A stretch of 56,487 bases of DNA from Saccoglossus kowalevskii. Lineage: Eukaryota > Hemichordata > Enteropneusta > Harrimaniidae. The notes under the pieces are model-generated. The model did no database searches. It saw only the letters and a list, made by a program, of their open reading frames with translations, and was not told where the DNA came from. Positions 8,150 to 56,152 of this stretch are shown one piece after another (positions within the stretch are counted from its first letter, which is position 1; every line of letters begins with the position of its first letter). Made by a program: the position numbers and the translations under genes. Where the stretch lies: positions 176,915 to 233,401 of the forward strand of contig NW_003129358.1 in assembly GCF_000003605.2 (NCBI RefSeq), read 5' to 3'.

Positions 8150-8186
8150 GCATCGTTTGCAAGTGCTACTGTACTAATTGTCCATG

Positions 8187-16800: not shown

Positions 16801-16802
16801 GA

Positions 16803-22226: not shown

Positions 22227-22366
22227 TTATTTCCTCTGCCCGATATGTACAGTCAATCTACCATTCAGCACTTCTATGGCAAGACATGTCTCCTCACTTA
22301 ATGGATTGTCATTTAAATATACATCATGGAGGTTTGGTATTTCTTGTATTCTTTGCGTGTCAATAT
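22227..22366 (-). CDS. LRRC20: LRRC20 coding exon 4 (last)
   Basis: Follows an AG acceptor (read ctatatag on the - strand) and ends in TAA at 22227-22229. Encodes residues 128-173, including IDTQRIQEIPNLHDVYLNDN and the C-terminal tail LTVHIGQRK. Confidence 0.88.
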
Positions 22367-25300
22367 CTATATAGATGAAAAAATATCATTGGTATATGGG
22401 ATACAGAATATGAACAAAAAAGTAAAATGATTGATAATTTGCACTGGTTTTGAAAATATCTCGTATATCATATCATATCTCAAAATTTCACTCAGTGATC
22501 TGGGATGATAGTCATATATTATTATTCATATCAATCCTAATATTGTTACAAAAAATCAACATTCAACTTAGAAAGTTTCCAGTGTGATAGTTTTCTTTTA
22601 TATACAATGTGAATTTCCATCCCATAATTCATTGCATATTTGCACAGTAACATACTCAGTGGTAAACAAATTTAAATTTGGCTCAACCTGCCTTATAAGG
22701 AAGTTTGTGTAGAATTTTAAAATTACATGTCACTGGATTCATTTAGTAATTTTTGTTCTTTTTGATCTTTAGCGTTGTTTTTTATGTTGAAATAATTACT
22801 TCATATTTCAAAATTTAGCTTGGTGCTGAACTAAAAAAGTTTAATACTGTTATGGATATGGTTCCTGATAAACAACTTCTCAAAATAGGTTCAATGGAAG
22901 GCTTTCCCATAATGCATTGCACACATTCAATCACAAAGTGTGGTTTACAACCTCATATCACATGATTAGTTACTCACAAAGATGTTTGACTTAGACACAA
23001 AAAAATAAACATAACCTAGATTACCTGTTGGGACATTAAAATAATTTCTCAAGGGGTATGTGCAACCAATAAACTCACAGTTCACAAAAAATTACCAAAA
23101 AGCCACAGCAAAATTATCATTATCGTCTGCACAAGTTGTCCACATTTCAAATTTATTTCAAACATTCCATGTTATGTCAGTTCTATTGATATTAAGATTT
23201 TGTAATCATAACAATTTTTTCCACCACTATATTTGTACCGAAAGATTTAATGTCTGACTGGCTAAAGGTCTTGACCAAAATGAGCATAAGCATAGAGCAC
23301 AACTTGAAAATTACAAGTACGATAATATGTTCCAATTTTGACAGGTTTTTCTAATCTAATATTACATCAAATGCCTTGTTGGACACAATATAAGAGGTAG
23401 GGTTATAGTGCCACCTACAGTTGAAACTGAGAAGCAGTTCCCCAAAACAAGTCCAACGTGCAGATGGTTTATACACATTAAAACAATTACCACTGATATT
23501 ACATTCAAAACATCAATCAACCTGACTACAGTTGCTAAGAATGTGCAAAACCAAATTAAGGTAGATACCCCTAAAGCCAGAAATGTGTAACATAGAAAAT
23601 TATGTCCAGTTGGTCTAAGATTATAGAAAAATAGATGCAAATTTGATTGGTAGTGTCGTGAGCACATAAATAAAGGTTAGAAAATGAAGAAGACGACCAG
23701 AAATTTGTATCGCTGTCGCATGATTTGTTTTTCTCGTATAATGTCCTGTTATGAATAAAATGAACATATTACGCAATAAATGCAACAACTGTAAAAGATA
23801 TACTGTAAAACATGTTGAAAAAGCGGCATGCAATTTTAGCGAATTGTGGTAAAATGACGTAATAGCATAATGCTGATTTAGCGAATCTCTCTTGCCATTG
23901 TTGAGTTCTTGTTTGGCGGCCATTTTGAATTGATAATAAACTCATTAACGACATATTGAATTAGTGAATCAGTTCTCTCACTAAATTCGCAAAAAAGACA
24001 TGTTTTACAGTATGCACTATTGTCATGTGATAGCATTGCATATCATAAACAATTATGAATCATACCTGTAATCATATTTGCCTTAGCGTTAAACGTTTTC
24101 AGACATGATAAACTGTAAACCACGTCGGGAAAATCAATGAATCTATTCTCAGATATATCTAACGATGTTAAAGCAACCATCTTACTGAGTTCATTTGGAA
24201 GACGAGTCAGAAGATTAGAAGACAAATTCAACTCTGAAAACAAAGATATAATAATGAAATTATAATCATTTAATTATTTTAACAATAAATTAAATAATTC
24301 TTAAATGAATCAATGATTACATAATCATCACTCATATGAGAGTACATAGAGACCAGAGTACAGTGGCCCCTCGCTAAGTCGCGGGTGTTGGGATCCAAGC
24401 AAAAACCGCGACTTATCGAGGGCCGCGACTTACCGAGGGACGTCGTGAAAGAGGGAGGTCGTGCATTGAAAAACATATAAAAAGCACATATAAACCCTCG
24501 GTTTAGTTAATTGATGTATCATCACATGTGTCAGGCAGTATTCGAATAAAATCATGATTATGTTTGCTGTAAACATTGCGTTGATTATTTTGTTTGTGTC
24601 TGATATTATGTGGGCCGCTTGCTATTGCTTGCGACTTCGACGGTAACAGCTTCCAAAATAAACCAGTTTCATCGCAATTATAAACATGTTCGTCAAAATA
24701 ACCACCTTCATAGATAATTTCTCTCAGTTTTTCGGGAAANNNNNNNNNNNNNNNNNNNNNNNNNNNNNNNNNNNNNNNNNNNNNNNNNNNNNNNNNNNNN
24801 NNNNNNNNNNNNNNNNNNNNNNNNNNNNNNNNNNNNNNNNNNNNNNNNNNNNNNNNNNNNNNNNNNNNNNNNNNNNNNNNNNNNNNNNNNNNNNNNNNNN
24901 NNNNNNNNNNNNNNNNNNNNNNNNNNNNNNNNNNNNNNNNNNNNNNNNNNNNNNNNNNNNNNNNNNNNNNNNNNNNNNNNNNNNNNNNNNNNNNNNNNNN
25001 NNNNNNNNNNNNNNNNNNNNNNNNNNNNNNNNNNNNNNNNNNNNNNNNNNNNNNNNNNNNNNNNNNNNNNNNNNNNNNNNNNNNNNNNNNNNNNNNNNNN
25101 NNNNNNNNNNNNNNNNNNNNNNNNNNNNNNNNNNNNNNNNNNNNNNNNNNNNNNNNNNNNNNNNNNNNNNNNNNNNNNNNNNNNNNNNNNNNNNNNNNNN
25201 NNNNNNNNNNNNNNNNNNNNNNNNNNNNNNNNNNNNNNNNNNNNNNNNNNNNNNNNNNNNNNNNNNNNNNNNNNNNNNNNNNNNNNNNNNNNNNNNNNNN

Positions 25301-28300
25301 NNNNNNNNNNNNNNNNNNNNNNNNNNNNNNNNNNNNNNNNNNNNNNNNNNNNNNNNNNNNNNNNNNNNNNNNNNNNNNNNNNNNNNNNNNNNNNNNNNNN
25401 NNNNNNNNNNNNNNNNNNNNNNNNNNNNNNNNNNNNNNNNNNNNNNNNNNNNNNNNNNNNNACGTACGGTCACTACTCGACACCCCTGTTGACACCTTGA
25501 GTAAGGCCGCCGTCACCCATTGCATCTCAGCAATTGACGGACAGTAGGTGTTAAGTTTTCTCTTTAACGGTTAGTTAAAAACACTATGCCACGAAACATT
25601 AGTCTTTGTACTTCAAAATTGCTGTCAAAACACAATAGAAATTTTGGGAGCCATCCAAGTACCCGCGACTTAGCCGAATCGCGACTTAGCGAGGGGCCAC
25701 TGTATTTAGTATTGGACAGGAGAGACGATTTCCAACCAGTCCAGACTGCCCTCATAATAACTTGGTGCATGGTAGGCTCAAATAGTAATGGAGTTGAATG
25801 CAACTACAATGAGCATAAAATCCAATTAATATTAAGATCTTTTGCAGGCATTTGACCTATTAAATATGAAATAGCTGTAACTGTCAATCTTTTTTTTCTA
25901 ATTTTAATTTTTAATAAAGCATTTCCTGTGTCATTAGCATGAATTTGTTATGGTTATCGTCGAAATGTGAGCACAGAAAGCGTGGCAAATACGCTATATA
26001 GCGATGTTAAACGAAAAATCATTTGAAAGTGAAAAAAGATGACTATGTGGTTGCGTCTAATCTTATCCAGAGGGTACCATCTTTTGAAATCCTATAAGGT
26101 GAATTTCATTGATTAGGGTGCAACATGAGGGCCCTTAGCAAAATGACCAATATTTGGAAAGTCTCTCACTGATTATTTAATGTGTCATTTGCCATAATAT
26201 GTGGTTATTATGAGAATACCTCAAAGTAAGCACAAAGACAGTACAGCTGGAGTATCAACTGACGTGCAGTGGAGGTCGTTGTGCGGCGTTCTGAGTGCAT
26301 ACTTTGAGATATCCTTGTAATGACCTTATTATTGTACATCTTTTCCTTCCAAGGATATACCATGGGAATGCCGAAATCCAGGTGACAGATGTATAATAAT
26401 AGTATTTATCGAGAGACATATTTTTCTATCAATGACATAGCAAATACCAGTACTCAATCTTTAGTTTTCACATCACATTTCACTGATATTAGCCTTGTGT
26501 AATGCAACTTTGCCAATACAATTGTGTCTAAAACAATATTTTGGGAAGATTCAGTTATCAAAATCACAGCTATTTTAGCTTTATTAATTTTTGTTTGAGG
26601 CACACTGAATGGTATTTGTTGGAAGCTATCAAGTGCATTAAATACTTTCACTCTTTCATTTAACGAATATTTAGATGCGAGTTTCAAGAAAAACATGCGT
26701 AGTTCATGGGACATCATAATCCAATGTAAACGGCAATATGCAGTAATTTCATACTTTCATCCATAATGCATCTTGAAATAAGAGCAAAGAAATTACCCAA
26801 TTTTTTTGTTTCATAATACTATTGTTTCATAACTCTGTACAAAGTTTTTTTTTTTGAGAAAAACTGTCTGAAAACATGCAAAAATGGGTCTTTTTTGGAA
26901 CTATTTCTGAAGAAAGTTTGTTAAAATAAATTAGATATTGATAATACGGAATAATGAGAATTCCTAAAATAAAACATAGGAACCAATGGTAAAGTGCCTT
27001 AAACAAATAGTAGTTTGGTGCTCATGCCTTTTTATCTGAATGTTTTTGATGATCAGTATTAGCGTCATATGAGTAAGTCAAGGAAAACTATTATTTTTAA
27101 TTTACAAGCATTTTTATTATATTGAAATAAGATTTATTATTTGCCACTACAATAAATGGCAGAAAACTGTACCTGTACAGAAAACTCAACATACACCCAC
27201 ACAATGCGTGCAAGTCTTTAATATATGTGGATGTGACATGCTGTAAAACAGGTTGAAAAAGCGACATGCATTTTTAGAAAATTGTGGTAAAATTGAGTGA
27301 ATCTCTCTTGTCATCGTTGATTTCCTGTTTTCACAATTCATGTCTGTCACATGCCAAAACAAATGCGCTCCATAAAAACAAAGAAAAACTGTAATTAGTG
27401 TAATTAGGAAGCATCCCTAATTTTTATGTTCCGGATTACTATATACAAATCCCCAACCCTTGGTCATTTTGAATCTATAATAAAGTCATTTGGACATCTT
27501 GAATTAGCTAAATTCACTAAAAAGACATGTTCGCAAAAAAGACATGTTTTACAGTAGTGTCTGTTTGGATGACATTGTACTAACTCATTAATATTTATTT
27601 ATACTTGCTACAATGTCACAGCACCATTACTGGATTGGTCAGTAAAGCAGCCATTTTGAATTTATTTCTAATTTTTTTATTTATTCAACGTTCACAAGAT
27701 ACTGTTACCCACTGTATAATTTTTGCAATATGACATTTTGAGTGCATTCATTGAAGCTAATTCTATATTTAAGACTGTACATGACAATATTCCTAACATA
27801 ATGACATTAAGGATGTTTACTACACTATCTCAATATTGACCAAACAAAGTAGCTCTTGAACTTGGCCAATAGAATCAATGAAAGGATTCTTGAGTTCTGA
27901 TTAACTTAAGTACATGTATATTATGCTCTTGTTCAATAATAAAACAAATCAATGAAGAAGACTATTACCCTTTAAGTTATTAAAATTAGAAGGAAATTTG
28001 GCTGGAATAATCTTCAAGACATTAAGAGACAGATTACATATTTCAGGCGATGTCTCTCGAAAAAATATGTAGACAGCGTCTGGGATTGCTTTCAGATTAC
28101 AATCAGATAAATCTGTAGAGGAAAAGAATGAAAAGATCACTACAAAATATTAATGCATTAATACAATTATGATTTGCTGTACATTCCATTTCATGAAGGC
28201 ATGAATATTTTTTACATGTATAAAAAAATATTAATAAATGTTTCATAAATTTTGATTGACAATTGAATACAACTTGATATTAGTGAATGCAAACATCTCT

Positions 28301-29977
28301 TATAGAATATCTTGGTGGTAAATTGACCAATGACGGAAATGAGTAATGGGTATAACCAAAAGGCTTTTTTGGTGTCTTCTCTTGGCAAAGTTTTCCAGGG
28401 TTAATCTTTCAAAAAATGAAAAGAAGCATTATAAATTATTTATATTTTCTATACATATTTTTTGAAAAAACACAAAAATAATTTTGAAATTTATTGAAGG
28501 ACTGTATGACTTTTGTAACATGTGATGTCATCAGGAGAACTATTGTTAAACAATTTGTTATTGTCCACTGACATGTGATGCATCATGGGAACATGGCAGT
28601 GAAGTATAGACCAAAAAAAATAAATATTGTTGGTCACTGCTGACATTCACTATAAATGTGCACATCACAGCTTTCAATTTCATTATATTTGCAGCTATAT
28701 TCACCAATACAAACAGTGCATTTCATTTACCCTGGAAGCATAGTCAGCTGGAGTTCAAGTGATAATAAAATAAATGTGATCAATTTACAGGTATTTATTA
28801 TATGGGGGAAGCTATCTTGAATACGGCTTGAAATTAAAAAACTATTTATTTAAAAATGATATTCAGATTGGAAAAATACCTGGTTGATATCGAGAACACC
28901 GAAAGAAGAAAACAATTGAGTAAATTCAGACTTACAATCACTGTGTCAAAATCCAAATGACATACAAAACCTAAAACTCCAATTGACAAAAGAATGTTCT
29001 ACTTATGTACTGCTATGGGAATTGAAGACGAGACACACTTCATAATGTCATGTAAGAAATACAAACATCAAGGAAATTTACACCGCAAAAGTAAAAAAAA
29101 AATGTTCTTCACAATCATGAGTTCAGATATAACATTTCTTAATATCATATTAGCAAAGTACATAGAGAAATGTTTATATATAACTTCCAAACCAAACACA
29201 ATAAGCCCAGTCTTCATAAAATATTAAAAAAATTATTGCCAATTTCTCCTGAAATACTTAACCTTAAACATTAATTTCTTATTTTTGTAGCTTTATAGTT
29301 TCTAGTTGTTTTGTATTTTGTATGTCTTAGTTTTAGTTTGTTTATTTTTTAAGACCATACTGCTGTACCTTTATGCGGCAGTGTTGTGTCAATAATATAT
29401 ATAGTGGTATATCAAACCAAAGACACTAGTGTCTTTGATTAAACTGTGCCTAGAAGACTCATTTAAAAGCAATCAATAGTCGAATTACTGTAATGCATTA
29501 AAAAATTCATGCCTTCATGAAATTCACTGTAACACTTTAGGAACATTGAATTTTATTTCTAAAAAAACACATCATTTGATTTTGAAAATGTAGGATTAGA
29601 GGGGTGAATGAGCTTCCAGCAGCTGGAGGCAATAGATAGGCGAGTAAAATATAATAGTTATATCCAAAGTGCCATAGCAAACGATGGTTGTCATGACAAT
29701 ATATTAAATCGGTCAAAACCCGTAGTATGTTATGTTTTAACTATCGACCTGAACAAAATATGACGTCATGTAACGTGACTGTGAGCAAAAGATGGGCGTG
29801 GTTGAAACTAAGTGGGCATGGCACGAGGTGGCTCGCACGTCACGTGTGCAAACCACAGGGGAAATTTTAACGTCAGAGTTAAAAATAAATGAGTTGATTA
29901 TGTTTACCTAACTGTTTGTCTGCTTGGGCTTCTCTACACTTGTTCGCAACCTTGGCCACTTCCGCTGCAGCTGACAT
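22227..29977 (-). CDS. LRRC20: Leucine-rich repeat-containing protein 20, four coding exons
   Basis: Coding exons on the - strand are 29977-29908, 28112-27969, 24233-24066 and 22366-22227, giving 173 aa (522 bp with TAA). All three introns are phase 1 with GT..AG ends, and the joins give an uninterrupted frame. The protein has a short helical N-terminus (MSAAAEVAKVANKCREAQAD), then leucine-rich repeats: LSDCNLKAIPDAVY, LSLNVLKIIPAKF, LNLSSNLLTRLPNEL, LDISENRFIDFPDVV, a weaker repeat, and LHDVYLNDNPLS near the C-terminus. No signal peptide or membrane segment is seen, so it should be an intracellular repeat scaffold. Length and repeat order fit LRRC20 (human about 184 aa), whose molecular function is not established. 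It is head to head with EIF4EBP. Its introns hold a Tigger element, two MITEs and a LINE tail. Confidence 0.9.
23801..24012. mobile_element. TA-flanked MITE, copy 1 (in LRRC20 intron 3)
   Basis: Terminal inverted repeats tactgtaaaacatgt (23801-23815) and acatgttttacagta (23998-24012) match perfectly over 15 bp with TA at both outer edges. The element shares internal blocks (ttgaaaaagcg(g/a)catgc, gaattgtggtaaaat, gaatctctcttg) with the copy at 27240-27556. No coding capacity. TA target sites suggest a Tc1/mariner-type helper. Confidence 0.8.
24066..24233 (-). CDS. LRRC20: LRRC20 coding exon 3
   Basis: Acceptor ttttcag and donor gtatga on the - strand. Encodes residues 72-127, two clear leucine-rich repeats (LNLSSNLLTRLP and LDISENRFIDFP). 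The split glycine/glutamate and aspartate codons join in frame with both neighbours. Confidence 0.92.
24361..25702 (-). mobile_element. Tigger/pogo-type DNA transposon (in LRRC20 intron 2)
   Basis: Inverted ends CAGTGGCCCCTCGCTAAGTC (from 24361) and its complement (to 25702) are flanked by TA (24359-24360 and 25703-25704), the pogo/Tigger target duplication. Subterminal copies of the ccgcgactta motif lie inside both ends. On the - strand just left of the assembly gap (24739-24600) the frame reads FPEKLREIIYEGGYFDEHVY and then NCDETGLFWKLLPSKS, the first DDE aspartate block of Tigger/jerky-like transposases. Immediately after this the frame no longer matches the family, so an internal deletion is likely. 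The middle (24740-25461) is unsequenced, so whether the N-terminal DNA-binding domain survives cannot be judged. Confidence 0.88.
24740..25461. other. Assembly gap (N run)
   Basis: A run of N inside the Tigger element. Any open frame crossing it is an artefact of the gap. Confidence 0.99.
27240..27556. mobile_element. TA-flanked MITE, copy 2 (in LRRC20 intron 2)
   Basis: Same family as 23801-24012. The left end is ctgtaaaacaggttgaaaaagcg (one change in the inverted repeat). The right end is aaaaagacatgttttacagta. About 105 bp longer than copy 1 because of extra internal sequence after gaatctctcttg, and it has a duplicated aaaaagacatgtt block near the right end. Confidence 0.75.
27969..28112 (-). 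CDS. LRRC20: LRRC20 coding exon 2
   Basis: Acceptor ctctacag and donor gtaata on the - strand. Encodes residues 24-71, from DLSDCNLKAIPDAVY through IIPAKFPSNFNNLK. Corresponds to the repeat region of LRRC20 that contains the L-x-L-x-N-x-L pattern. Confidence 0.9.
28820..29395 (+). mobile_element. Non-LTR retrotransposon 3' end (in LRRC20 intron 1)
   Basis: A + strand frame reads ERRKQLSKFRLT, one stop, then PKTPIDKRMFYLC and GIEDETHFIMSCKKY (28900-29070). This is the conserved cysteine-containing C-terminal segment of CR1/L2-like retrotransposon proteins (I-E-D-E-x-H-F-x-x-x-C-x-x-Y). The frame ends at 29227 and is followed by a 3' UTR-like stretch rich in T to about 29395. It is 5'-truncated and carries a stop, so inactive. 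It lies antisense to LRRC20. Confidence 0.7.
29761..29768. promoter_or_regulatory. Consensus CRE (TGACGTCA)
   Basis: Perfect palindromic CREB/ATF site at the edge of LRRC20 intron 1, about 210 bp from the LRRC20 start codon and 650 bp from the EIF4EBP start codon. Occupancy is not known from sequence. Confidence 0.45.
29841..29846. promoter_or_regulatory. E-box CACGTG near the shared promoter
   Basis: Palindromic CACGTG, the site used by MYC/MAX, USF and TFE-type bHLH factors, 62 bp beyond LRRC20 exon 1. Short motif; functional only by inference from position. Confidence 0.35.
29908..29977 (-). CDS. LRRC20: LRRC20 coding exon 1 (start)
   Basis: ATG at 29977-29975 opens MSAAAEVAKVANKCREAQAD, a helical N-terminus like that of LRRC20 orthologues. 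The donor is gtaaac right after TTA G, giving a phase-1 intron. Exon 2 continues the frame. Confidence 0.82.
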
Positions 29978-30414
29978 TATAAGCTGTCAAAAGTATTACA
30001 CATTTAAACGAGGATTTGCTGGTGGTGCTAGTTTGCACGATTATCAGTAAATCAGTAAAACAAAATAAAAGAAGCAACACAAGTCTGATATCTGTGAGAA
30101 CAAATCGATAGCTATTTCAGAAACGAATTAGAAACATTATGTGGAAAAATCACCAATAAGATGTCTACCCGTTGACAAGGTCATAGTGCATGTGATGGGT
30201 TAAAGGTTAGGCCTCGTGCGGCACACATATCCACATATGGAAGTTCTCGGCTTTACTCGGCATTTACCGAATCAATCTCGTGACTTCGGTGGTGGAATGG
30301 TTGAACATCTGAGATCGTGTGTTTGTGTAGCTCTTCTCTAAAACTTATTCGATTTAATGACTGTTTCCTGCCGTTATTTACCCAAGATTTGACGTGGCAT
30401 TTTGTTTTACCAGC
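29978..30414. promoter_or_regulatory. Shared head-to-head promoter of LRRC20 and EIF4EBP
   Basis: Only 437 bp separate two divergent start codons, so both 5' UTRs and core promoters must lie here. More CpG and G/C-rich than the surroundings (for example 30205-30300). No TATA box at a sensible position. A pyrimidine run (ctcttctct, 30331-30339) upstream of the 4E-BP start could be a TOP-like leader start, but the transcription start is not determined. Confidence 0.7.
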
Positions 30415-30553
30415 ATGTCAGAGCAAGCTGTACCCCCATTTTCCAAGAGTCGGGAAATCCCGACGAGAAGAGTGATACTAAATGATCCATCTCAAATGCC
30501 TTCTGACTACTGCACAACTCCTGGAGGTACCATATTTTCAACTACGCCAGGAG
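30415..30553 (+). CDS. EIF4EBP: EIF4EBP coding exon 1
   Basis: Encodes residues 1-46 plus one base of Gly47, from [16 protein letters not shown] to FSTTPG. The intron falls inside the second TTPGG motif, as I remember for vertebrate 4E-BP genes. Confidence 0.95.
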
Positions 30554-33500
30554 GTTGGTTACTATTGCATTTTATCAATATTAAGTGTTTCATCTTGTAC
30601 TGCTGTATTCTGGATTCTTCGCTAGTATAAAAATAGGCATTATTTGTTATTACATCGATCGTTAACGTGGTAAACTGCAAGGTGTTTTGGTTCTCCTCCA
30701 TGACGTAAACAAAATTTAAAAACGTGACGACGCCATTTACTGTGTATCTAGGTCAGCCTTGTGCAGGTTTCTTTAATTAATTGACACTGAACTGCTGCTT
30801 TACATAATATTGTTTATAGTGACTTTTTGTGGACTATTGGAAGGCGCAAATGTTGTATTTTTGTAACTCTTTCGACGTGGTCAGTCAATGATTGTATGCG
30901 TGATGTCAGCAGAGCACGTGATTTTGTTTTGATCCTACCCCTTCCCCGCAAATCCAGGCTACAAACAAAACGCACCAATCACCTATTACGTCGCGGTTGT
31001 AATATGCACTTATTGCCATTTATTAATATTCCACATCTCATTTTATGAACATATAAACTTGTCCAAAATACCAAAACATTGACATTTCGAAACATATTGC
31101 ATCATGTATCTTCAAGGTCACCTGACATTGTCTGTTTGTGTTATTCATCCCTGGAATGTCTGACCTTGTGAATGACCTGCTGCATTCGTGTTTATATCAA
31201 TTTGTTTTGTGGTGCATAACAACTCTGGACCAGTTGCAACATTGAACCCTCTATGTTGACTTTTCCCCTAAAAATAATATATCTGTTAATTTTAAATCCC
31301 AAATAATATCAATGCAAGTGTCGTTTTGTGTAGTATTGTATCGAAATGTGAACACTGTATTGTTGAAGTTGTGATATATATTATTCTTAATATTATTTGT
31401 GATAATCTTTTGTTTGCATATAGTGTCTCATCACATAAAACATCACATCTGGTAATAACACTGCATTGATAAAGACCTGATATTTTTATAATATTGTAGA
31501 GTGGTCCAATTCAGCGATGATAACAAATCATGCATTCACATTTTTTAAGGTTTTAGCAATGTTTAATTTTGGTGGAAACACTGCAAATTCTGATAATTCT
31601 AAGTTAAAATGGAGCATTCTATGGCTTCCTTGGGGCCAACATTACTATCAGACAGGTCACAGGTGATCCCTGGTCAATCAGAATTTTATGGTTGCCAGAG
31701 GATTTGCTCCCCAGCGTAAGGGGGCACATGACCATGGCATGTAGGCACTTCACCCCTGTTTTCTTGTTTAAAAAAATCCCTGTAATTTGCATGTCCTGTT
31801 CTGTGTTATCTACTTTGTAAACAATTGTGAGTGACAGGCCATATCAAACGAACCAATAGTGTTGAATGATGATGAGCAGTTAAGCCAAGGCACATCTAGA
31901 GATGTTTTATTCTTCGCAGTTAGCATGAGATGTGTGAAGAGAAGAACAACAAAATCTATCAAGAATTTGATTGATGATTTCCCTGTGTTACAGCTGCTTT
32001 TATGAATAGTATCAATGACAACATTTAGGAACTTGATATTTCTCGTAATTTTGTCATCAACTAGGATCAGACTGGAGTTGCTATAATTCCAGCTGGCCAG
32101 TAGACCATGGATTACACCAAGTATCTTGATGACAAATTACACTGATGACAAATTACTGCTCTATTTGCTCTTTCTGTTGCTATTGATTTTTCTTACTACT
32201 TCAAGTACTGTAACAGGGGTAAATAGATCATTGTCATTCAGCTTGCATTTTGCAATTCATTGGATATTTTCAACACAAGAAATCACTGGTCAAACCATAA
32301 TTCCATGATGTTTCAACTTCCAGTCACACACCAGGTGGAGGCCGTATTTGACATGTACAATGTGTATTGCAATGACGAGCTGCTGAAAAAGTTGAGTGAT
32401 CACCATATCTCTGTTGTTTGTACCAGCTTACTGTACTGACTGGTAATAGCCATTGGACTTGTCAGTGCACAAGATATTCAAAGAACAGAGGAAACAAGGG
32501 TTTTTAGAAGTGGTACAATGATCGTGTGCGCTTGGCAATGAAAGATGGCGTTGAGGGCCAAAATTCAGATATTCAACTGAGCGAATTATAACCTGTAGTT
32601 GTTCAAATCGTATCAACATGACCTGATCAGATTAAAGATTTGAAAGCAGCAGCAATTTTAGACTGTTTTTTTTATTCAGCAGTGCATTTTATTTTGTTAT
32701 TCAGATTAAACCTACCCCTATTGGATCCCAGACGCTAGTGTGTGATTGTGTGTCTTTGTTCTCTCCCCTTGTGATATGCAGCCCTGTCGTGACCTGGATT
32801 TAAAATACTGTGAAAGAGAATAATTGTTTCACAGAGTATTTAATACATTTAATTAAAATAAGTAGAGGGGGTTCTTATAACAATGGTGTGTGTGTCTATG
32901 GTAAAAAATTAATGTGCTCAGAAACTGACTATTTATTGTATTTGGTCTAAATCTTTGATTTATGTATACTAGTTTTGTTTCATCGTTCCAAAATTCGACC
33001 TGACTATGGTAAATATTACCATATTTTAGCCACTAACTGGCCACAGTCCAAGTAATTTATGTATTCATTAAACAAGCCTGCATGTTTTGATATTTATGAG
33101 CTGCTGAGGTCAAAGGTCAGCAGGGATATCTATGGATAAATGTTACATGGCGTTATGTCACTGCTACTGCATGATACATGTAATAAATGTATTTTTTTGT
33201 TGTTGCAACAGTATGATCTATTTATTTCTGGATAAATATATCAAATGTATCAGTTGGTGATCCATAAAAAAAAATAATTCAATCTCCATATATAGACACC
33301 TCCGTAAAGACCATTTTAATGATGTCACTAACTTGGTCGCTATACACGGGTTTAACTATATGCAAATAAGCTTAAGTCATTACAGTGTTATGGTATAACT
33401 TGCACTCAAATTCTGTGTAAACAAACACTGTATGCCACATGGAACCCATATCGAAGACAACACAGTACAAGACTGCTTTAACCATAATATTATTTAGACT

Positions 33501-44880: not shown

Positions 44881-45107
44881 AGTGTAATTTTTGTTGCGCT
44901 TTTTAATTTTAGTCTTTTTGGACATTATAGGTCTTTATTGTACGTTATACCTGTTGTTTACATAAATTTATTTGGCGAAGATTGCTCATGTGCAACGAAT
45001 CGGATATTTGTATTATTTGCTGGCTTGACGAATAAGCGGCTAGATATCTGGAAATGCGCGACGAGCTGCGCAATTTACAACATCCGGGTATCACAAAAAT
45101 CAACTTC

Positions 45108-45122
45108 TAACATGGCGGGTGG
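45108..45122 (+). promoter_or_regulatory. YY1-like AACATGGCGGG element in the ANKHD1 leader
   Basis: taacatggcgggtgg resembles the (A)ANATGGCGGC motif bound by YY1 just downstream of many animal transcription starts. The ATG in it also opens the uORF. Assignment is by motif only. Confidence 0.4.
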
Positions 45123-45153
45123 GATGGCTAGTACATTGAGTCCAAAATATTGA
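45112..45153 (+). promoter_or_regulatory. Upstream ORF (13 codons) in the ANKHD1 leader
   Basis: ATG 45112, TGA 45151-45153; encodes MAGGMASTLSPKY. It ends 74 nt before the ANKHD1 ATG, far enough for reinitiation. It is real only if transcription starts upstream of 45112, which is not known. Confidence 0.4.
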
Positions 45154-45227
45154 AAATACCCGAGTAAAATAACCGCCTTTCTGGAAAATAACTGGACTCT
45201 GTTGTATAGGAGAAAGAAGGTAGGAAA

Positions 45228-45410
45228 ATGCAGAATGTTGGACACTCTTTAGGTGAAGAAACTGATGATATTCTTAAAATGAGTGAGCATATTGAGGACA
45301 GGGTAACTTCGACTGCGGCATCGGTTCTCGAAAAAGCACAGGTTTTGGCAACTCTGCAACAGGATTTAATGGCCGATCTTTCTGGCAGTGAAGAAGGAGA
45401 GGTCTCAGAG
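45228..45410 (+). CDS. ANKHD1: ANKHD1 coding exon 1
   Basis: 61 codons, phase 0, donor gtaaga. Encodes the acidic, predicted helical N-terminus that ends GSEEGEVSE and joins exon 2 as EVSE-VESFIL, a sequence typical of the family. Confidence 0.88.
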
Positions 45411-48400
45411 GTAAGATAATCAGTATTCAATAAACTCAGCCGCGGAGCCGACTTTCATGACCTGATTATTCTTGGAAAAAACAACGACGCATCTGAAATT
45501 TCTACATCACATGGCCGAATCTGATTTTCACCCAAAGGGCCCAAAGTTCACAAAATGACGATGGTTACTTACAAGGATGAAGATTGTGATCTCCCGGTCT
45601 GTTAGCGCGATTTGATTTTTCAGGATTTGAAAGTTGTTAGTGATCTGGTCATCTCACATTTACATGTCAACTGCCATTTTGTTCATAATCCCGCTGTAGT
45701 TCACCGATATTTGCTACGTGTAATTTCCTAATGGCAATTTTATTTTGATTGACACACGTGCGGTCACTGTAATGTTTCCACTGGTTTTCACATCAAGCAC
45801 AGTTTTACAGGTGCTGTATATTCCATCTAGAGTCTTGCCATATTCCATTCACTTCACATGTTCACGTTTTCAAAAAGACAGTCTACTAAATCAACCTTAC
45901 ATTTCTTGAAGAATGTTTTAGTGTTGTTGTACTGTCAAGTTATTTTTATTATATTAATATTCATTACAATGTATTCTAATGTAGACTAACCATTGACAGT
46001 GACGATTAGATTTTTGCTGATCACACTTATGTTTTTTATCTGTTGGAATTATGTGATTGACACTGTCAGAAAGTTGATGTTTGTGCTTTTATAGAAAACA
46101 ATTATTTGATGCAATAAAAGTTGTTGTGTACAATGCTGATCATGACTGATCACACCTGTGCAGTGATCGTCATTTGTTTCCAAACCTCAAAACTGTTCAT
46201 ATATTTTCTCTGTGGGGCAACCTGCGAATAGCTATGTAAATTTTTTTCACTTTTTGAAATTGTTAGCTATAATTCTGACAGTTTCCTATTCAACACCTTT
46301 GTGATATTATGAGTTTTGGTAACTGTTTTTTTCGTATTGTGCTTTGCTGTGGTTGTTTTTTTTCACTGAATTTATGAATATTTTGACTCTAGACTTGTAA
46401 TGCTGAAATGTGTTATTTTTTACAACTTAGCTAGTTGTCTATACATCCTGTATAGGTCGTACACATACCGTGTTCTCACTAGAAAAAGTTACATTGACAA
46501 AAGTTACACCTTTGTAATAAAAAAATGTATAATGCACTCGATGGTGCTGATTTGTTGGATAGGCAATGCTTTGGTTGACCATATATTTCTGCCGTTTGTG
46601 TTCTTTTTCATTCAAGCAATTATAGTTACCCATTCCTGCTAAAACATAAAGCTAATCTCTTTTTAGCTCTATGGTGGAACCAAAACCTAAACTGATCTCA
46701 AATTTGACACACATTGCCTACTTTGAAATAAGATTTGAACTTGAATACAGTTGACAGTACAGCTCCAATACACTTAAACACAATTTGTGAACGGTAGCTG
46801 TTGTTGCCAGATTTAATTCCCTTTACACCTGTGTAACATGTGCTCATCTGTCTGTGCCAACATTACTACCATACTTAAGGTCCAGGGTGTTTTACCAAGC
46901 GTCGATGACATTTATCTCTTTTGAGTAGTAGTTTTCGAAACGGCAAAAATGTGATCGTCAAGTCGTGAAACCTGGTCATTGAACATTGTTTTACTTTACC
47001 GAATAAACGTCCATTGAGACTATCAAGAATGGGGTGTGAACAAGCAAACTATTCTTCGACATGACTTGTTGGCGGCCGTGAAAAGTTTAAATACTTCTTC
47101 TACCCTCAGTTTACCTTTTGTAAATTGCGAATTAACAGCTTTTAAAGGGGAAAATTACTGTGTTTTTTTTTGTCAAAATCAGTGTTAACAGATCGTATTT
47201 TAACATCGCGGTAATTCACCTCCGCATTGCGTTGAAAAAATTACTTCATCAATAATCAGAAAACTTTGTCTGTACGACACAGCATTTTGATTGGTTAACA
47301 AAAGACGTGACTTGTTAGGTCAAAGGAAGTTGTTCAGGTCAAATCATAAGAGTATCAAGAGTTTGGGTACGATTAAAAACATTCCACAACGAAGATAATG
47401 ATAAAGATCTTGTCTTTGACTGTTTCCTCACAGACCCTCTCGATTTTTGCACTGTAAATTCAGACGGTATGTAAACCGTATTGTAATAAAATGTGTGTAA
47501 TTTTATGAACATGTTAGTTTCTTCATTGTAAAATGTGTCATGGAAATTAATGACAACTCGTTTTGCATTTTTTTCCACAAAGAGACGTATTATTTCTCCA
47601 AGATCAGTGCTGTGAACGAAAAATATAATTTGGATAATTTTTCATGGGTTGGAAGATGGTTATCTTTTCTGAGGTGGTCCTCAAGTATAAGCCCACCCCC
47701 TAATTTTCCTGATTTTAAATGTTCAGGCCCCTGGGCTTATGATCAAGGAAGTATGGTATTACCATACTCAACCGTGTGAACGCCCAGTGTTCTCAACTCA
47801 GAAAATCATTATTTTTTAGGATTGGGTGCTTACCTGAGCACCCCCATCGGGAAAAGAGTGCAAATGACAATTTTAGTTCACCCTGTGACATTACAAAATT
47901 AGTTGCGTCGTCATTGACTTTCACAATGAATAAACAGAAATGGTCACAAAAATATGAACATTTTATTACAATATTAATTACATAGGAGTTGAAGTCAAAA
48001 TCTTCATTATTGTCGAATGTATTGGATTGCATTTCATTTTTATTAACAGGTCTTTGTCGAAGTGTAATTTACACATGGCTACCATAGTCTACGCATTCAC
48101 AACATATTCACGTTGGTTGATATCCACGTTGTACCATATAAAAAGATTACCAATATCCGTTTTATGATTAGACAAATTACAGGCATTTTTGAAGGGGTTG
48201 TTCGCTTAGCGAACGTGAACCCGAAAATATAATTGTTCCAAAAGTGGGAGTGGGTGCATAGCCGAGCATGGGTGCTAAGCCGGTCGAGTACGGTATATAA
48301 TATTTATGCCAGTGCTGTCATTAGTGTAATATGTTCACTTATGATTTTCTCTTGCCCTAATGTGAGTGATGTCAACGGAAAGGGGGACAAAAAACAGATG

Positions 48401-51400
48401 TGAACATGGTAATTGTCAGTCGGGTATTTCTGTATTCACTCGCAATATTATTTGATTCGGTTCAAGATTTATTGTCAAGGTATTTCATCTTAACATATTG
48501 AAATTAGACACCCTATGGTTACAACAGTATTTAGAAGCAAATTAAAAAACACCATTATTTAGTCTACGAGTGTAAACGACCGTTTCTCATCAACCAGACG
48601 ATGCATACTCACAAGTGAGTCCCCCTGTACTTGAGATGCGTCTTTAATAGTAGAGCAAATACGGAATATCAAGTGGCTTTTCAGATTGTAATTGAATGAA
48701 GATTTGATTGTTTGCTGGATTATTCACTGGAATGAGTAACTTCATTTCAATATGCTTCAAAAAGTTTGTGACCACAAAACATTCAAGTCAGAGTTTGAAT
48801 GTGTATCTTGATAGTAGTGCAAATAAATTACTGTAATTACGATGTAATTCGTAAATGTATGTAAAATAACAATACTCACTGGAATTGTCAGCTTAAAACG
48901 CTTATGCTCAAAATAGTGAAACTAAGTACCACAGCATTTTTTTTTTATATCTGAAATAGTCATGTGACCTTCTGGCCACAGTCATTTTCAATATCAAATT
49001 TGGAATCATCAAATCAAATTAAATCTCATCAAAGTTCAAAGTTTGACCCAGTTCTGCACGATGAGAAACATAACTGTTTTGGGCATACTGGTAATGTTGT
49101 TGGAAACTTCATATATAATGGGAATGAGCTCAGCCATCCCACCCCCTTTCCGCCTATGTCAGAACCCATATTCAAATGTACAAAATCTTAAGTTAACAGA
49201 TTTTAAGATTAATAAATTGGAATGATCTGAACATGGTCCCATAACTGAACCAACACACAGAAAATGCTGAATAAAAAATATATATATATTTTCCTGGAAA
49301 AATAGCAGTTTGTATGAGCAAATAGTTTCTATTTCGGATTCTCGGCCGAACGAGGGTAGTACATGTAAGAGTTATATTCCTAACATTACTGGTATATATT
49401 TCGTTTCGATATATTGGTAAACCAGTATTCCATAAATGTTGATGTGTTCCAGTGACGTGTAAAAATGTACAAAAAAGTTTGAATAGAGATGACACATGTC
49501 AAAAAGACATTGAAAACTGCATTTCTATAATTTCATTCAGTGAAAATACACAACACACAAGATGGCAGACATGCCTCTACTTCTATGATGGCTGAACTGA
49601 TGGTTCATTGCATTTTATTTTTCCACTCTGCACAAAACACTGTGCACTACGTGTAGTTTGTACTGTAGAACATGTCGACCCTGGTAGTTTGAAAGTTGCG
49701 TGGTTACTGTATTCGTGGTATTGGGAATTAAGTGCCACATTCGTTATGCAACAAATGTTTTTTTTTGTATGTTACACGCATAGTATATACTCCACATGCA
49801 ACCAGCATATGTAATTGAGCATGAATGTTTTATTTAATATGTTGTGTGTTTGAATTTGTATGGTAATTCACCTTAGAACAAAACAAATTGTGTTTTTTTG
49901 TGTGTGATCAGGTACCAGTGGGACACTAACTAAGCAATGTTAAATTTTGGATGTATAAAACATGGCAATAATTTTGTGTTTACCATGTATATCATCCACA
50001 AATTGATAATGTGGCTTTGTTGGGCTGAATAATCATTACAGGTTGTTCTTGTTGGCATATGAAAAGAAACCAAGAAAAATGTGGGTGTCACACAATGTTG
50101 GTGGGTGTCACACAATGTTGGTGGGTGTCACACAATGTTGGTTGGTGTGCCTGCCACCCACATGTCGAGAGAACACTGCACTTTATTTTGGTAAACTGCT
50201 TCATCTAATGGATAGAAATCGTAATTTCTTTAATAATTGGTAGCGTTAGTTGACTGCTCTGAAGTTTGAGTCCTGTTACTGTTACATATATATTATCGAC
50301 GCTATACAATTATTATCAATCATGTTAATTTTGGGACAGATAATTTTTGGAACCTTTTATAATAACTTCAGTTGCTGCTTGCATCACCTGTCTGAGTTAA
50401 CCCATGCATGTAACGTGTCACCGTATATAGATACATGTAAATGAATCCTTATTGGATTATTCACATACATTTTGTGGAATGAATAGGAGCAGTGTGGAAC
50501 TCATGAAAACAGCTCATGCAATTCATGGAAATCTTTTTATTCCTGGTATATACAAATTAGGTCAAGGCTACAAATCTTTCTCACAGGGTTTTCAAAAGAT
50601 TGTGTCTGTCTGTCTGTCTGGGGCCATATCTGTGCATAATAAGCAGCTATTTTGCATATTAATTATCTTATTTCAGCCTGTTTCAAAAACTTCAGAACAG
50701 ATTTTCATGAAATTTGCTTTAAATTGGTGCTGAACATCTTCTGGCTGATGATCTTAACCTCTAATGCCATTGCTCCTTCACTGACTGTTAGCAATATCAA
50801 TTTCTTATAAAACAACAATAATATATATATGCTGTATTCACATGGGAGTTTAACTTTGATTATTGTTCTTTGTTGAAATGTCTTCAGAGAGGAATACATG
50901 TATAGTGTTGAGATATCTTTACTTCATCAAAATTAACCTTCATCAAATGTGTAGCATAAAAATACTTAAAAACTAGTTTGGTATATGTCGAATCCCATGG
51001 GATTTGTTGATGTTACTACGATGCTATGACCTATGTCCTGTTATTACATTCAATTTAATGCATAACGTTTCATCTGATAGTCTGATAGTACCGTAGATGT
51101 TATTTGCACATTTCTGGACTTCCTATCGTTTGATCATGTTACAAAACTATATGGTCCCAGAAGCACAGAAACTAGTGATGCTATGATAGATGGGTGTGGT
51201 ACCAGTAATTCTCAAAACAACATGCTCACTGTTTTCTGTTTCAATCACTGTCATTTTTAGACTGTAAACAAGCTGTGAGAGTCTTGTATTTTCATGTGTT
51301 CAAATGCAGAATAGTTTTAAAGACACCACATGGCTTTTGAGGGTAATTGCTACCTTTGAGACTAATATGCCATTTTGTATTTTAAATGTGATGTCTTTAT

Positions 51401-54400
51401 ATTCATAGGGATTGTCACAGTTGTAGACAAACCTTAAATGTGATCTATAGAATTAGTGTCACCTCTGAATACATCTATTGTCTCATGTATCAATGTACAC
51501 TTGTTGGACACTGTTTTTCACATCCATCAATACTTGACCTTTCATTAGACTGGTGAAGTACCCCTTTCTTTTTTCCCTTTTGATATAATTATAAATGGTT
51601 GTTTTCAAGTAATTATTCCTAATTTGTTAGTTTCATATGTACTGTCAAATGCAGTAAATTAGTATATTGTAAAGCAGTAGTTGCTTGTAATGATACAGCT
51701 CTTTCTCAGGTCAATGTACTTTGAAGGTCACTCTTACTATGAGCTATATAAGTTGGTGTTGTCTGGTTGGATTGTGTCTATATCCTAACACTAACAAATA
51801 AAATGCACATAATTTTCACTGTTCAATCTAAAATTAACGAGATTCTGAAAAAAAAATTCAAAATGTTTTGGTGGCTTCAAAGATAAAATATACATGATCA
51901 TTACTGTGAATTGTTAGCTCAATAACTGAAACAGATAAATTTCCCTCCATAGCCGCATTGTTTAAAACAAAATAAATTTTTCCCTAATAATGAATGAAAT
52001 GGCAGGATGTGTGAATAAATAATACCTATTTCATAAAATCTTATATTGGTTATAATTTTGTTCTGTTACCACTTCATATACTCACTCAGGTTTTTTGATT
52101 AAAACTAATGACTGATTACCTGTCAGTTGCCAACTCATCACTTAATTATGCTTCATGTCTGAAAATAAAATGTATATCATCATGCAACTCTTGTAGACAC
52201 AAATTAGGATTTCTCAAATGCACTAATGTATTGTATGTGACCTAGTTGGTGTGTATTGCGTTATGGAAATTACAAGTTTGATGCTCAACGGTCCACACAG
52301 TAAATATAGTGACTTTAGACTACTTTACAGAATTGCAGCATTTCATATTGTGAGATTAAAAGTCTGTCAAAAGAAAACTCATGACGCATTGTGTGATGTT
52401 TCTGGTCTCAAGTGCATGTAGAAAGTACTAGATTTATCACTGCTTTCTCACTGAAAGTTGTCATGTTTAAATATATAAATGTATAAAAAGTTGTCACTGT
52501 TGCATTTTCGTTGTTGCAGCAAACCCATTATTGATTAGTTCCAAATTTAAATCTCACTGGTATCCAAAGTTGAATACCGAAAACCGTAGGTGTGACTAGG
52601 TTGCTAGAGACTCGTTAGAGCAATCAATATACTATTTACTTAACTGACAAAAATAACTGACTGCATATTCAATTTTTACACAGGTCGAATCCTTTATACT
52701 GGACCCAGATGAATTGGAAGGTGAACCAATACTAGACACCGCATCTAAACTGTTACAACTCAACAGTACTGGTGGAGATTTAAAAATTGTTGATCCCGAC
52801 ACACAAGAAAAATTAGAGGCTTTGTTAGAAGCAGCAGGTACAGTAGAAATTATTGTGACACGTCTAGATAGTGGAATCCTTGAGTGTCATGGGTGTATTT
52901 ACAGATTACATTGAATCCCTTGAGGTTTGCTTAATCTGACATCAGAAATTGTTCCTGACAAAGCTGCTACATCATTCTGAGCTCTAGGTGATAATTAACC
53001 ACCCGTCTAGATTTAAAATAAGGGGAGTCTCATACTTGTACAATTTTCCTAAGCTCCTCCTACCTATACATGGCTTCCCGCATACATCATCACTACCACA
53101 TTCATTTCTTTCTGAATATTCATATTAGCATTCTCAATCTTTCTTTCTATATCAGCATTATCATATTCTTCTCCAGAGAGTTCAACTACCTTAAATTTTA
53201 TGTGTATTGTTTTTTTTTTGATGTCAACTATTTGACTCACAAAGCTCACTAATTTCTATTCCTGCTTACTTATCCCAAACCAAGAGAGAATATCATGACA
53301 TTGATTATATATTATTCATTTGTATATTTCCTACTTTAAAAAATAAATAAATAATAATGAATTGTTGACTATAGAGGTAATATTGATTTAAAGTTTTATA
53401 AGAATTTCACAAAATTGGTTCTAGTAACTGAATTCAGACGTGTCCAAAAAACTTGTCAGCGATGTGGTTATTTGCCATACTCAATTTATATACTCAATAG
53501 TTTTGACCTGCACTTATGGAGGTGATTGACTAAACCTGAATGTTTTGATTCAATATGTCCTAGGCATTTAATGTGGCCATGAAATCGGGTGTCCTTAGAA
53601 TAGTTCCAATTCAAGCCATGTTAGGCATGATACCAACATCATTCAATTGTGGAATTCTAATGAAAATGCTTTCTTGGTATTGTAGGAATTGGCAAATTAG
53701 CGACTGTAGATGGCAAAGCTTTCACTGATCCTGAAGTTTTGAGAAGATTGACTTCATCTGTAAGTTGTGCATTGGACGAAGCTGCAGCAGCATTGAGTCG
53801 TATGCGAGCTGAGATGGGTGGATCAGGACCTGTCTCTGAGGGGTAAGATATATTTCACTAACTGTCATTGACTGACATAAAACTATTACTGTAATATCTA
53901 TACTAGAAGCCATGGCTTCTATTTATATGGTGGAATGCAATAGAGGGATGTGGCTTCTATTAGAGCATCTACACATGAGAAATGATGAATTTTTGGTTCT
54001 CAATTGTTCAAAAATGATTGAGTGCGACTCCTACTAGGGATGTGGCTTCTAATACAGATAATACAGCTACTGGTATAGACATGTTCAGTTTGAATTGCTC
54101 TGATGACCTGGCTACTGTTACCATTTAATGTCGACTACTACCATAACAAAATCCTTTTTTTAGTGCCAGTAACATTATTGTAACATTTAGCATGCAATGT
54201 ATCAACATACACAGTTTGTCAATTCGTTTTGGTTTTTTTGGTGATCAAAGAGTGGGGAATAACCTTTCTAGCCGTAGACTCTCCAGAATTTTGGGCACTG
54301 ACTATTTTTTCAACAATTTCCTGAATTCATAAAGCTTATTGGATGTGAATATGAACTAATGTAATCTGTCAACTTGATGCATGGCTACTACAGTCAGTTA

Positions 54401-56152
54401 TGTCAACAGTTAGTTACAACTCTGTTGTTATTGATCTGTAGAATAAGATCATTGGTCGATGCATGCACTGAAGGAGATGTGAATGCTGTCAGGAAATTAT
54501 TAGACGAAGGTCGTAGTGTACATGAAACCACTGAGGAAGGGGAAAGTTTATTATCGCTTGCATGTTCTGCTGGCTACTATGAACTAGCACAGGTAAATGT
54601 CTTGTCTTGTTCTTTATAACAATTATAAATCTGAGCATGTATAATAGATCATTTATCGAAAAAACTATTTAAGAAAAACGTTTTGAGGAATCCACCTTCA
54701 TTTCCTATTTCATATACCGTATTTGCTTGTATAAACATTTGCATTTGTTGTCAAGTGAACCATTGAAATATGACTTATTTTGACCATAGAAACACCTGTG
54801 TGATTTGTGTATTAAGTGTACGCTCTATTGATAGTGATATTGTTGTGAAGTAAGCCACTTTTAATACTAATCTGATTCTTTGTAATAGTGAGGATTATCC
54901 TATCTTAATGCTTGGTTATATTTCATTTACTTGCCATGCCAAGTTTGATATCTGTTTTGTCTGATATTCATTATTAATTCATCAAAAATTATGAATTATT
55001 TAACTGTACATGTGTGATTGATCTATTCCTTCTAACTATTTGATTAGTACCAAGTTGGATTATTACTGTATTTGCTCTATTAATAGCTAAGGTGTGTCTC
55101 TGATCAAAATGAGTCGTACTTTAATTATTCATTGTACAATAAATGCAATATTTGTTTTCTATGCACTTGTGATAAATAAAACATATACAGTTACTAAGCA
55201 TTTATGTCCATAATAGGTTCTGTTAGCAATGCATGCTAACGTAGAAGACCGTGGTATAAAAGGGGATTGTACACCATTAATGGAGTCGTCATCAGCCGGC
55301 CACACTGATATAATCAGATTACTACTCGCCCATGGCGCTGATATTAATGCCCAATCATCTACTGGTAAGATTACAATCTTAGTTTTCTGGTTTATTTGGT
55401 TTTCTGCAACTTAGCATCAATAATGCTGTCTTTATCAACACTTGTATTCATTTATTCAATACCAGAAGTCTCCGGCCTAAAAGTAAAACATGAGTAAGTG
55501 AGAAATATATAATAATGCACTAGAAGTGAAGTTCATATTGTCAATAATTTTTAACAATAAGTTATAGACATAGAGCAAGCCACTCCAATTTTGCAGTTAT
55601 TAATTTTTGCCATTTGATGATTCGTGATGCTAAAATTCTGTGAAAGTATTTGACAGTCTACGTTCTATGATTTTACAACTAAGAAAAATTGTTTTTCACT
55701 GACCCTCGAAAATTTGTTCTTTACAAATTAAACCGGTTTACAGTACGTTGCATTAATAGTGTACTGTAAAAAGCTTCAATTTTGTAAGTGAAAATAAAAT
55801 ATATTGGGAGATTTGTTAAAAATAAAGCACTGTAATGTATAATAATCTAGAGAATGTCTTTTTTTGGGGGGAAAGGGACCTTGCTGACTTGTTGAAATCA
55901 TTTTGGTAATTTTTGCAGGGAATACACCACTTATGTATACATGCAATGGTGGTCATGAGGACGCTGTTAAGGTGTTATTGGAGAATGGTGCTAATTTAGA
56001 GGATGTCAATGAAAATGGACATACACCATTGATGGAAGCAGCTAGTGCTGGACATTTAGGCGTGGCTAAAATACTCATTGAAAAAGGAGCACTTATAAAT
56101 GCCCACTCCAATGAATTTAAGGAGAGTGCTCTCACTTTAGCCTGCTACAAAG
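45228..56152 (+). CDS. ANKHD1: ANKHD1/MASK ankyrin-repeat KH-domain protein, first six coding exons (partial)
   Basis: Exons 45228-45410, 52684-52837, 53686-53842, 54442-54592, 55217-55364 and 55919-56152 join in frame for 342 codons plus one base; the gene runs off the window. MASK proteins (human ANKHD1 and ANKRD17, Drosophila mask) are very large cytoplasmic/nuclear scaffolds with two ankyrin blocks and a C-terminal KH domain, linked to receptor tyrosine kinase and Hippo/Yorkie signalling. Seen here are an acidic N-terminus (1-61) and a conserved pre-ankyrin region (ESFILDPDELE, LEALLEAAGIGKL, DPEVLRRLTSSVSCALDEAA). Then five ankyrin repeats follow (about 167-325: RSLVDACTEGDVNAVRKLLD, LACSAGYYELAQVLLAMHA, GHTDIIRLLLAHGADINAQS, GHEDAVKVLLENGANLED, NGHTPLMEAASAGH) and the start of a sixth (KESALTLACYKG). 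The start ATG is the first in frame; context ggaaaATGc has A at -3. The short N-terminus means an alternative upstream exon is possible. Confidence 0.95.
45411..52683. other. ANKHD1 intron 1
   Basis: 7273 bp, GTAAGA to ACACAG. Contains a 3x20-bp repeat (50081-50140) and a short (TCTG)n near 50606. No nested gene recognised; the open frames in it lack domains and codon bias. Confidence 0.8.
50081..50140. repeat. 20-bp minisatellite, three exact copies
   Basis: gtgggtgtcacacaatgttg occurs three times without change, followed by a partial fourth copy (gttggtgt). Exact identity points to recent expansion. It may vary in copy number between individuals. Confidence 0.95.
52684..52837 (+). CDS. ANKHD1: ANKHD1 coding exon 2
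   Basis: Acceptor ttttacacag, donor gtacag. Encodes VESFILDPDELEGEP through VDPDTQEKLEALLEAA plus one base of the next glycine codon. Confidence 0.93.
53686..53842 (+). CDS. ANKHD1: ANKHD1 coding exon 3
   Basis: Acceptor gtattgtag, donor gtaaga. Encodes IGKLATVDGKAFTDPEVLRR and SSVSCALDEAAAALSRMRAE, the most conserved pre-ankyrin stretch of MASK proteins. Confidence 0.95.
54442..54592 (+). CDS. ANKHD1: ANKHD1 coding exon 4
   Basis: Acceptor gatctgtag, donor gtaaat. Carries ankyrin repeat 1 (GDVNAVRKLLDEGRSV) and the first helix of repeat 2 (LLSLACSAGYYELAQ). Confidence 0.95.
55217..55364 (+). CDS. ANKHD1: ANKHD1 coding exon 5
   Basis: Acceptor cataatag, donor gtaaga. Encodes VLLAMHANVEDRGIKGDC and repeat 3 (TPLMESSSAGHTDIIRLLLA), ending in the split glycine of repeat 4. 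Confidence 0.95.
55919..56152 (+). CDS. ANKHD1: ANKHD1 coding exon 6 (last in window)
   Basis: Acceptor atttttgcag. The donor is GTTTGT, non-consensus after the GT, but it falls exactly after LACYK-G, where the family continues with HLDMV. Carries ankyrin repeats 4 and 5 and the start of 6. Positions 56153-56487 are intron. Confidence 0.92.

Follow-up and report, generated by a model that had tools for sequence, protein, structure and literature searches.

Do two gene pairs that lie on different human chromosomes, LRRC20 with EIF4EBP2 and ANKHD1 with EIF4EBP3, go back to one neighbourhood built around a single 4E-BP gene? The question is raised by a stretch of 56,487 nucleotides (C2107:176915-233401, hereafter the window; C2107 is the contig) in which LRRC20(-), a 4E-BP gene(+) and the 5' part of ANKHD1/MASK(+) follow one another, with open frames and GT-AG splice sites. 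We consider it very probable that this block was inherited from an ancestor common with vertebrates that preceded their two rounds of whole-genome duplication (2R), and that in vertebrates it was then duplicated and thinned by differential loss, a shared promoter probably holding LRRC20 and 4E-BP together. The features that carry the argument are the following, in window coordinates.

22227..29977, minus strand: LRRC20 orthologue, 173 amino acids; coding exons 29977-29908, 28112-27969, 24233-24066 and 22366-22227 (stop)
29978..30414, no strand: 437 bp between the divergent start codons of LRRC20 and 4E-BP, a putative bidirectional promoter
30415..34093, plus strand: 4E-BP gene, 115 amino acids with C-terminal FEMDI; coding exons 30415-30553, 33535-33708 and 34059-34093
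45228..56152, plus strand: 5' part of ANKHD1/MASK, running on beyond the window; exons 45228-45410, 52684-52837, 53686-53842, 54442-54592, 55217-55364 and 55919-56152

The original prediction had placed one 4E-BP gene between LRRC20, head to head with it, and ANKHD1, on the same strand; the rebuilt gene models agree with the span it gave (22227-56152), and together with family matches they confirm the arrangement. In a 118-residue version with a slightly different last junction, the 4E-BP matches the Pfam family eIF_4EBP (PF05456) with an E value of 3.5e-46, over profile positions 9-117 of 117, and human 4E-BP1 in the PDB with an E value of 2.7e-31. The 115-residue frame carries YERNKLM in place of YDRKFLL at the eIF4E-binding site, TPGGT twice and FEMDI at its C-terminus, a motif that presumably has its customary role. 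The eIF4E-binding and TPGGT sites are features of 4E-BP described in the literature, and the protein is expected to repress eIF4E under TOR control in the ordinary way. A check for further 4E-BP paralogues, proposed with the original prediction, was run across the assembly (572,110,611 bases in 4830 contigs). It returned two family matches, both of them the window's own exons, and we reject the presence of several copies.

LRRC20 is likewise a single-copy gene. Its product (175 amino acids with an alternative junction choice) has leucine-rich repeat (LRR) matches in Pfam and is collinear with human LRRC20, with 96.7 bits across residues 3-155 of the 173 in the query. LRRC20 is absent among the best 60 of 138 PDB sequences, where the best match is SHOC2, through repeated LRR stretches. 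The best SHOC2 stretch reaches 53 bits, as against 96.7, and an identity as SHOC2 or another LRR gene is rejected. The LRRC20 query, for which 150 of 170 candidates in the assembly were scored, has 55 matches there: its own exons account for four, and none of the remaining 51 exceeds 45.7 bits.

The ANKHD1 fragment, modelled with the first of four alternative junction choices that remain, has ankyrin matches in Pfam and comprises the conserved N-terminal block of ANKHD1/MASK and the start of the first ankyrin array. Over 282 residues it is 72% identical to human ANKHD1 and 75% to human ANKRD17. An N-terminal query found two matches in the assembly, both in the window, which makes this gene single copy as well. 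It runs off the window end into a run of unread bases (N run, C2107:233402-241934), and the visible part ends before the second ankyrin array and the KH domain; a human ANKHD1 KH segment found no match in the assembly in a search run without a positive control. The 4E-BP is identical to human 4E-BP1, 2 and 3 at 62/103, 63/106 and 48/86 positions, with the top score for 4E-BP2. By these identities and scores neither gene appears clearly to prefer one vertebrate paralogue, as expected for unduplicated genes. No relatives of 4E-BP or ANKHD1 were found in the prokaryote and viral contig collections scanned.

What might hold such genes together is suggested by the sequence between LRRC20 and 4E-BP. 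Three further stretches, defined by the ratio of observed to expected CpG (o/e), are needed here.

29500..31200, edges approximate, no strand: CpG-rich island over both start codons, with ~1.5 kb at near-normal CpG density
30901..38900, plus strand: CpG-depleted stretch (o/e 0.37), with most of 4E-BP and ~4.4 kb past its stop
38901..45700, no strand: CpG-normal stretch (o/e 1.13) between the 4E-BP and ANKHD1 units, taking in the first ANKHD1 coding exon

The 437-bp region between the start codons has an o/e of 0.97, a value reached by 7 of 329 overlapping gene-body windows of the same size, or by 17 of 347 when a transposon in an LRRC20 intron is included. In 300-bp windows the ratio is 0.20-0.38 at starts 29000-29400, rises to 0.62-1.15 at 29500-30900 and falls to 0.11-0.49 at 31000-31500. 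Head-to-head genes within 1,000 bp are counted as bidirectional promoter pairs (PMC2194621), and LRRC20 and 4E-BP lie within that distance, measured from start codon to start codon. Because this short spacing falls inside a CpG island between CpG-depleted gene bodies, the two genes likely share a bidirectional promoter, and we infer that this would be the most likely constraint keeping them together. The explanation covers this pair only; ANKHD1 has its own CpG-normal 5' region.

The counterparts in vertebrates are documented, as the original prediction had it, for LRRC20-EIF4EBP2 on chromosome 10 and ANKHD1-EIF4EBP3 on chromosome 5 (PMC5720705, PMC2764143, PMC6862657). A list of genes in a 10q22.1 deletion includes LRRC20, EIF4EBP2, NODAL and PALD1 (PMC5720705). 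In sheep, two markers on chromosome 25 lie inside LRRC20 and GRID1, NODAL is 69 kb from marker s09443.1, and LRRC20, EIF4EBP2, NODAL and NPFFR1 are all listed among the genes lying no more than 100 kb from markers (PMC5408376); by deduction, these four apparently belong to one marker. No chromosomal places for NPFF receptors are given in PMC4208404. Human ANKHD1(+), EIF4EBP3(+) and SRA1(-) are tabulated together (PMC2764143), and the first two are a pair at 5q31.3, where the MASK-BP3 read-through joins ANKHD1 exon 33, via an extra exon, to EIF4EBP3 exon 2 (PMC6862657). Further, human chromosomes 4, 5, 8 and 10 form a paralogon that accords with two early tetraploidizations and carries ADAMTS3, ADAMTS2 and ADAMTS14 on 4, 5 and 10; 4E-BP and ANKHD1 are not mentioned in the available part of that paper (PMC2453138). 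In zebrafish, the Nodal gene squint appears in one table with htr1ab and eif4ebp1 (PMC6347452); a Nodal gene thus neighbours both EIF4EBP1 and EIF4EBP2, in support of their origin as 2R duplicates.

Does the resemblance to chromosome 10 extend beyond the window? In the flanks examined (C2107:36915-176914 and 233402-373401; with the window 336,487 bases, of which 198,342 are not N), frames of at least 95 amino acids, or of at least 80 in the outer pieces, were read by eye. One further gene enters the argument.

C2107:98719-117025, minus strand: three-exon NPFF receptor gene on the same strand as LRRC20, whose stop lies ~82 kb away

The wider order on the contig is NPFFR(-) LRRC20(-) 4E-BP(+) ANKHD1(+). 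The best PDB matches of the receptor are NPFFR2 (E 1.1e-90, 308 bits) and NPFFR1 (E 1.5e-87, 297 bits), with the next class, the orexin receptor at 208 bits, ~90-100 bits lower. LRRC20, 4E-BP and ANKHD1 are single copy and the receptor is not; because it belongs to a large class in this genome, its orthology, judged from similarity scores, is less firm than theirs. Five matches to its relatives sit on one other contig, C2070. Between the receptor and LRRC20 no other conserved gene was recognised by eye among frames of at least 95 amino acids, which is a weak test.

We propose a model in which a non-vertebrate lineage kept NPFFR(-) LRRC20(-) 4E-BP(+) ANKHD1(+) in single copy from the ancestor common with vertebrates. 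In early vertebrates the region would have been duplicated twice, giving part of the 4/5/8/10 paralogon, and the copies would have lost different members. The outcome of this loss would be NPFFR1-LRRC20-EIF4EBP2 on chromosome 10, ANKHD1-EIF4EBP3 on chromosome 5 and, presumably, NPFFR2 and ANKRD17 on chromosome 4; the shared bidirectional promoter may explain why LRRC20 and 4E-BP stayed together. Common descent, differential loss and the promoter as constraint are what we infer from gene content, order, strand, single copies, spacing and the CpG island. That the full four-gene block was already present in the common ancestor with vertebrates, perhaps in the bilaterian ancestor, and was the source of the human 10q22, 5q31 and 4q13 neighbourhoods is a bolder proposition, to which we incline with less assurance. 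A cluster from before the duplications, split by differential loss, was also the original prediction's proposal, and it gains from the documented pairings, the single copies, the published paralogon and the additional NPFF receptor. Its description of the block as a likely ancestor does not hold, the window being a living, unduplicated relative, but shared inheritance fits best.

Comparison with the human regions brings out likeness and difference alike. At 10q22.1 (NPFFR1-LRRC20-EIF4EBP2-NODAL-PALD1) LRRC20 and a 4E-BP gene share one neighbourhood as they do here, apparently with NPFFR1 to judge by the sheep list, whereas ANKHD1 is not among the genes listed there and NODAL follows EIF4EBP2, with no NODAL match in the readable flanks here. 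The strands of NPFFR1-LRRC20-EIF4EBP2, which we take to be (-)(-)(+), match this contig, and the human LRRC20-EIF4EBP2 spacing is presumably ~20 kb, compared with the 437 bp between start codons here. At 5q31, ANKHD1 adjoins a 4E-BP gene on one strand as in the window; there it lies upstream, whereas here it lies downstream and a CpG-normal stretch separates the units. The 4/5/8/10 paralogon carries the vertebrate counterparts (5 and 10 from papers, 4 and 8 by our assumption), quadruplicated and thinned, and the window genes are single copy.

Several points count against inheritance as a block. The order of 4E-BP and ANKHD1 is opposite to that on human chromosome 5. The NPFF receptor has at least 131 matches in the assembly, a count taken from 130 scored candidates out of 617, in which two matches are exons of the gene itself; among the rest the highest score is 172 bits, and a short match at another place shows 51% identity. 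Human sequences of NODAL, SAR1A, PPA1, part of SLC4A4 and PFDN1 were used as queries on the 198,342 readable bases, and none of the five matched at E values up to 0.1. The head-to-head strands of human LRRC20 and EIF4EBP2 are our assumption, as are the assignments of ANKRD17 and NPFFR2 to chromosome 4 and of EIF4EBP1 to chromosome 8. The ancestry itself is read from this one genome and the vertebrate literature. An anole table has no EIF4EBP3 homologue beside ANKHD1 in the part available (PMC2764143). Finding the genes unlinked in outgroups would not by itself exclude shared ancestry, since linkage is easily lost.

The reversed order speaks for the alternative that survives best, namely that the LRRC20/4E-BP head-to-head pair is ancestral, whereas ANKHD1 arrived next to 4E-BP separately in this lineage and in vertebrates. 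That 4E-BP lies upstream of ANKHD1 here and downstream in human, as the original prediction held, is borne out by the gene models and by PMC2764143. The single local rearrangement in one lineage that it allowed for is an understatement: in a signed-marker comparison of LRRC20, 4E-BP and ANKHD1, with assumed strands for the chromosome 10 pair, the best scenarios all come to a total of two inversions and leave four ancestral orders level, so that at least two inversions are needed and the lineage is indistinguishable. By reasoning, one transposition would suffice instead. One of the tied orders, ANKHD1(+) LRRC20(-) 4E-BP(+), yields both human arrangements by gene loss alone, and the window arrangement may therefore be the rearranged one. 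Independent arrival would also accord with the 11.1 kb between 4E-BP and ANKHD1, which holds three tRNA-Thr genes and a weak Myb/SANT-like frame. Against it, two separate approaches of the same single-copy genes are unlikely (~1 in 10,000, an assumed figure), and the chromosomes involved, 5 with ANKHD1 and 10, belong to the same paralogon (PMC2453138). We regard independent arrival as improbable, and inheritance of the block as the better account.

Could the genes be together by chance or through an assembly artefact? The window is flanked by N runs at either end, and ANKHD1 was seen in part, but inside the window there are only two such runs, of 722 bp in an LRRC20 intron and of 50 bp between 4E-BP and ANKHD1. 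The three human copies have six genes directly beside them; the probability that both immediate neighbours of 4E-BP belong to this set is ~7.5e-8, and 0.0015 such cases are expected per genome, rising to 0.18 when ten genes on either side are allowed (figures that assume 6 and 60 neighbours and 20,000 genes). The strength of the case thus lies in immediate adjacency, and on these figures chance or artefact is hardly credible.

Equally remote is an origin of the window in a vertebrate or other post-duplication lineage that retained all pairs, for which we found no support, high as ANKHD1 sequence conservation is: the assembly has one 4E-BP, and CpG o/e is ~1 outside gene bodies and 0.36-0.50 inside most, whereas vertebrate CpG depletion is typically uniform.

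With inheritance from before 2R as the preferred account, the block is a new example of an ancient inherited neighbourhood, a kind of which hundreds have already been described. For the bilaterian ancestor, 256 new microsyntenic blocks were reported, as against 45-56 in shuffled genomes (PMC8851819), and these likewise keep several orthologues together across distant lineages. The terms eif4ebp, lrrc20 and ankhd1 each occur 0 times in the available text of that paper, supplements aside. No paper describing this block was found among those listed in the literature searched, again supplements aside; none of the terms looked for occurs in PMC2446394 or PMC6354393, and a cockroach expression table merely names two of the genes (PMC12752085). 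The particular value of the block is that it joins two known human neighbourhoods. If our reading is true, the block serves as an unduplicated point of comparison for as many as three human neighbourhoods together, the ANKHD1-EIF4EBP3 adjacency was inherited rather than acquired, the 4E-BP paralogues are tied to 2R, and the shared promoter is a testable reason for one pair staying together.

Should the four-gene block hold as well, the closeness of MASK and 4E-BP would be far older than the mammalian MASK-BP3 fusion, which would then have arisen incidentally, through the particular members lost from each duplicate. In human, ANKHD1 lies upstream of and is spliced into the 4E-BP gene; since 4E-BP is upstream here, a read-through of the human type is not possible. 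The opposite read-through, from 4E-BP into ANKHD1, we reject on the CpG-normal stretch at 38.9-45.7 kb that appears to separate the units. In Drosophila, Thor and mask lie, we presume, on different chromosomes. A statement that Mask-BP3 occurs there (PMC10454556) we doubt and have not used.

Across 1-56487 the CpG ratio alternates sharply, between ~1 and 0.2-0.5, and the alternation seems to mark transcription units. By segment it is 0.98 over 1-18500, 0.50 in LRRC20, 0.72 over 45701-49500 and 0.36 over 49501-56487. Depletion seems to extend ~3 kb beyond the LRRC20 stop. Downstream of 4E-BP, 500-bp windows are low from 36001 to 38500 and the next is 0.81; AATAAA stands at 37044, 38030, 38224 and 38246, among others, and the depleted sequence past the stop is possibly a long 3' untranslated region. 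We take the alternation to reflect a non-vertebrate genome in which gene bodies are methylated and the shared promoter is not, and the patchy profile and single copies probably fit a non-vertebrate animal.

An LRRC20 intron holds a DNA transposon at 24359-25704, presumably Tigger/pogo-like, bounded by perfect terminal inverted repeats of 25 nt; positions 24740-25461 in its middle are N, and CpG o/e around it is high (0.88-1.21), as if the insertion were recent. Between 4E-BP and ANKHD1, the three intact tRNA-Thr(TGT) genes (39473-39544, 43584-43655 and 44809-44880, plus strand) score equally at 71.2 bits. A fourth, cut-off copy (~44527-44569) sits where the two units of a 279-bp tandem duplication meet (44290-44568/44569-44847, 99% identity). 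The Myb/SANT-like domain (PF13837, ~40579-40722, plus strand) lies in a short frame and scores E 3.3e-5 and 24.6 bits, against a curated cut-off of 27; it may weakly suggest a gene fragment or the first exon of a small gene. This was the one match, a weak one, in six-frame Pfam scans of 1-7200, 7201-22200 and 34101-45200 at E up to 0.05; 45412-52680 was scanned in one frame. Inverted arms at 41368-41475/41534-41641 (108 nt, 84% complementary, 58 nt apart) look like a small non-autonomous element.

In the left part of the window, frames at 4326-5176 (plus strand) and 8187-9552 (minus strand) are broken and, as we take it, retroelement-like; three of the broken frames were tested and matched no retroelement families in Pfam. 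An array of the five-base unit TAACA and its variants lies at ~8016-8150. Downstream of ANKHD1, the N run at 233402-241934 is followed by arylsulfatase-like frames and then by a two-pore potassium channel-like gene. By eye, the former make up two similar genes in tandem on the plus strand (C2107:243-248 kb and 265-268 kb), and the latter has at least two exons on the minus strand (C2107:314-344 kb).

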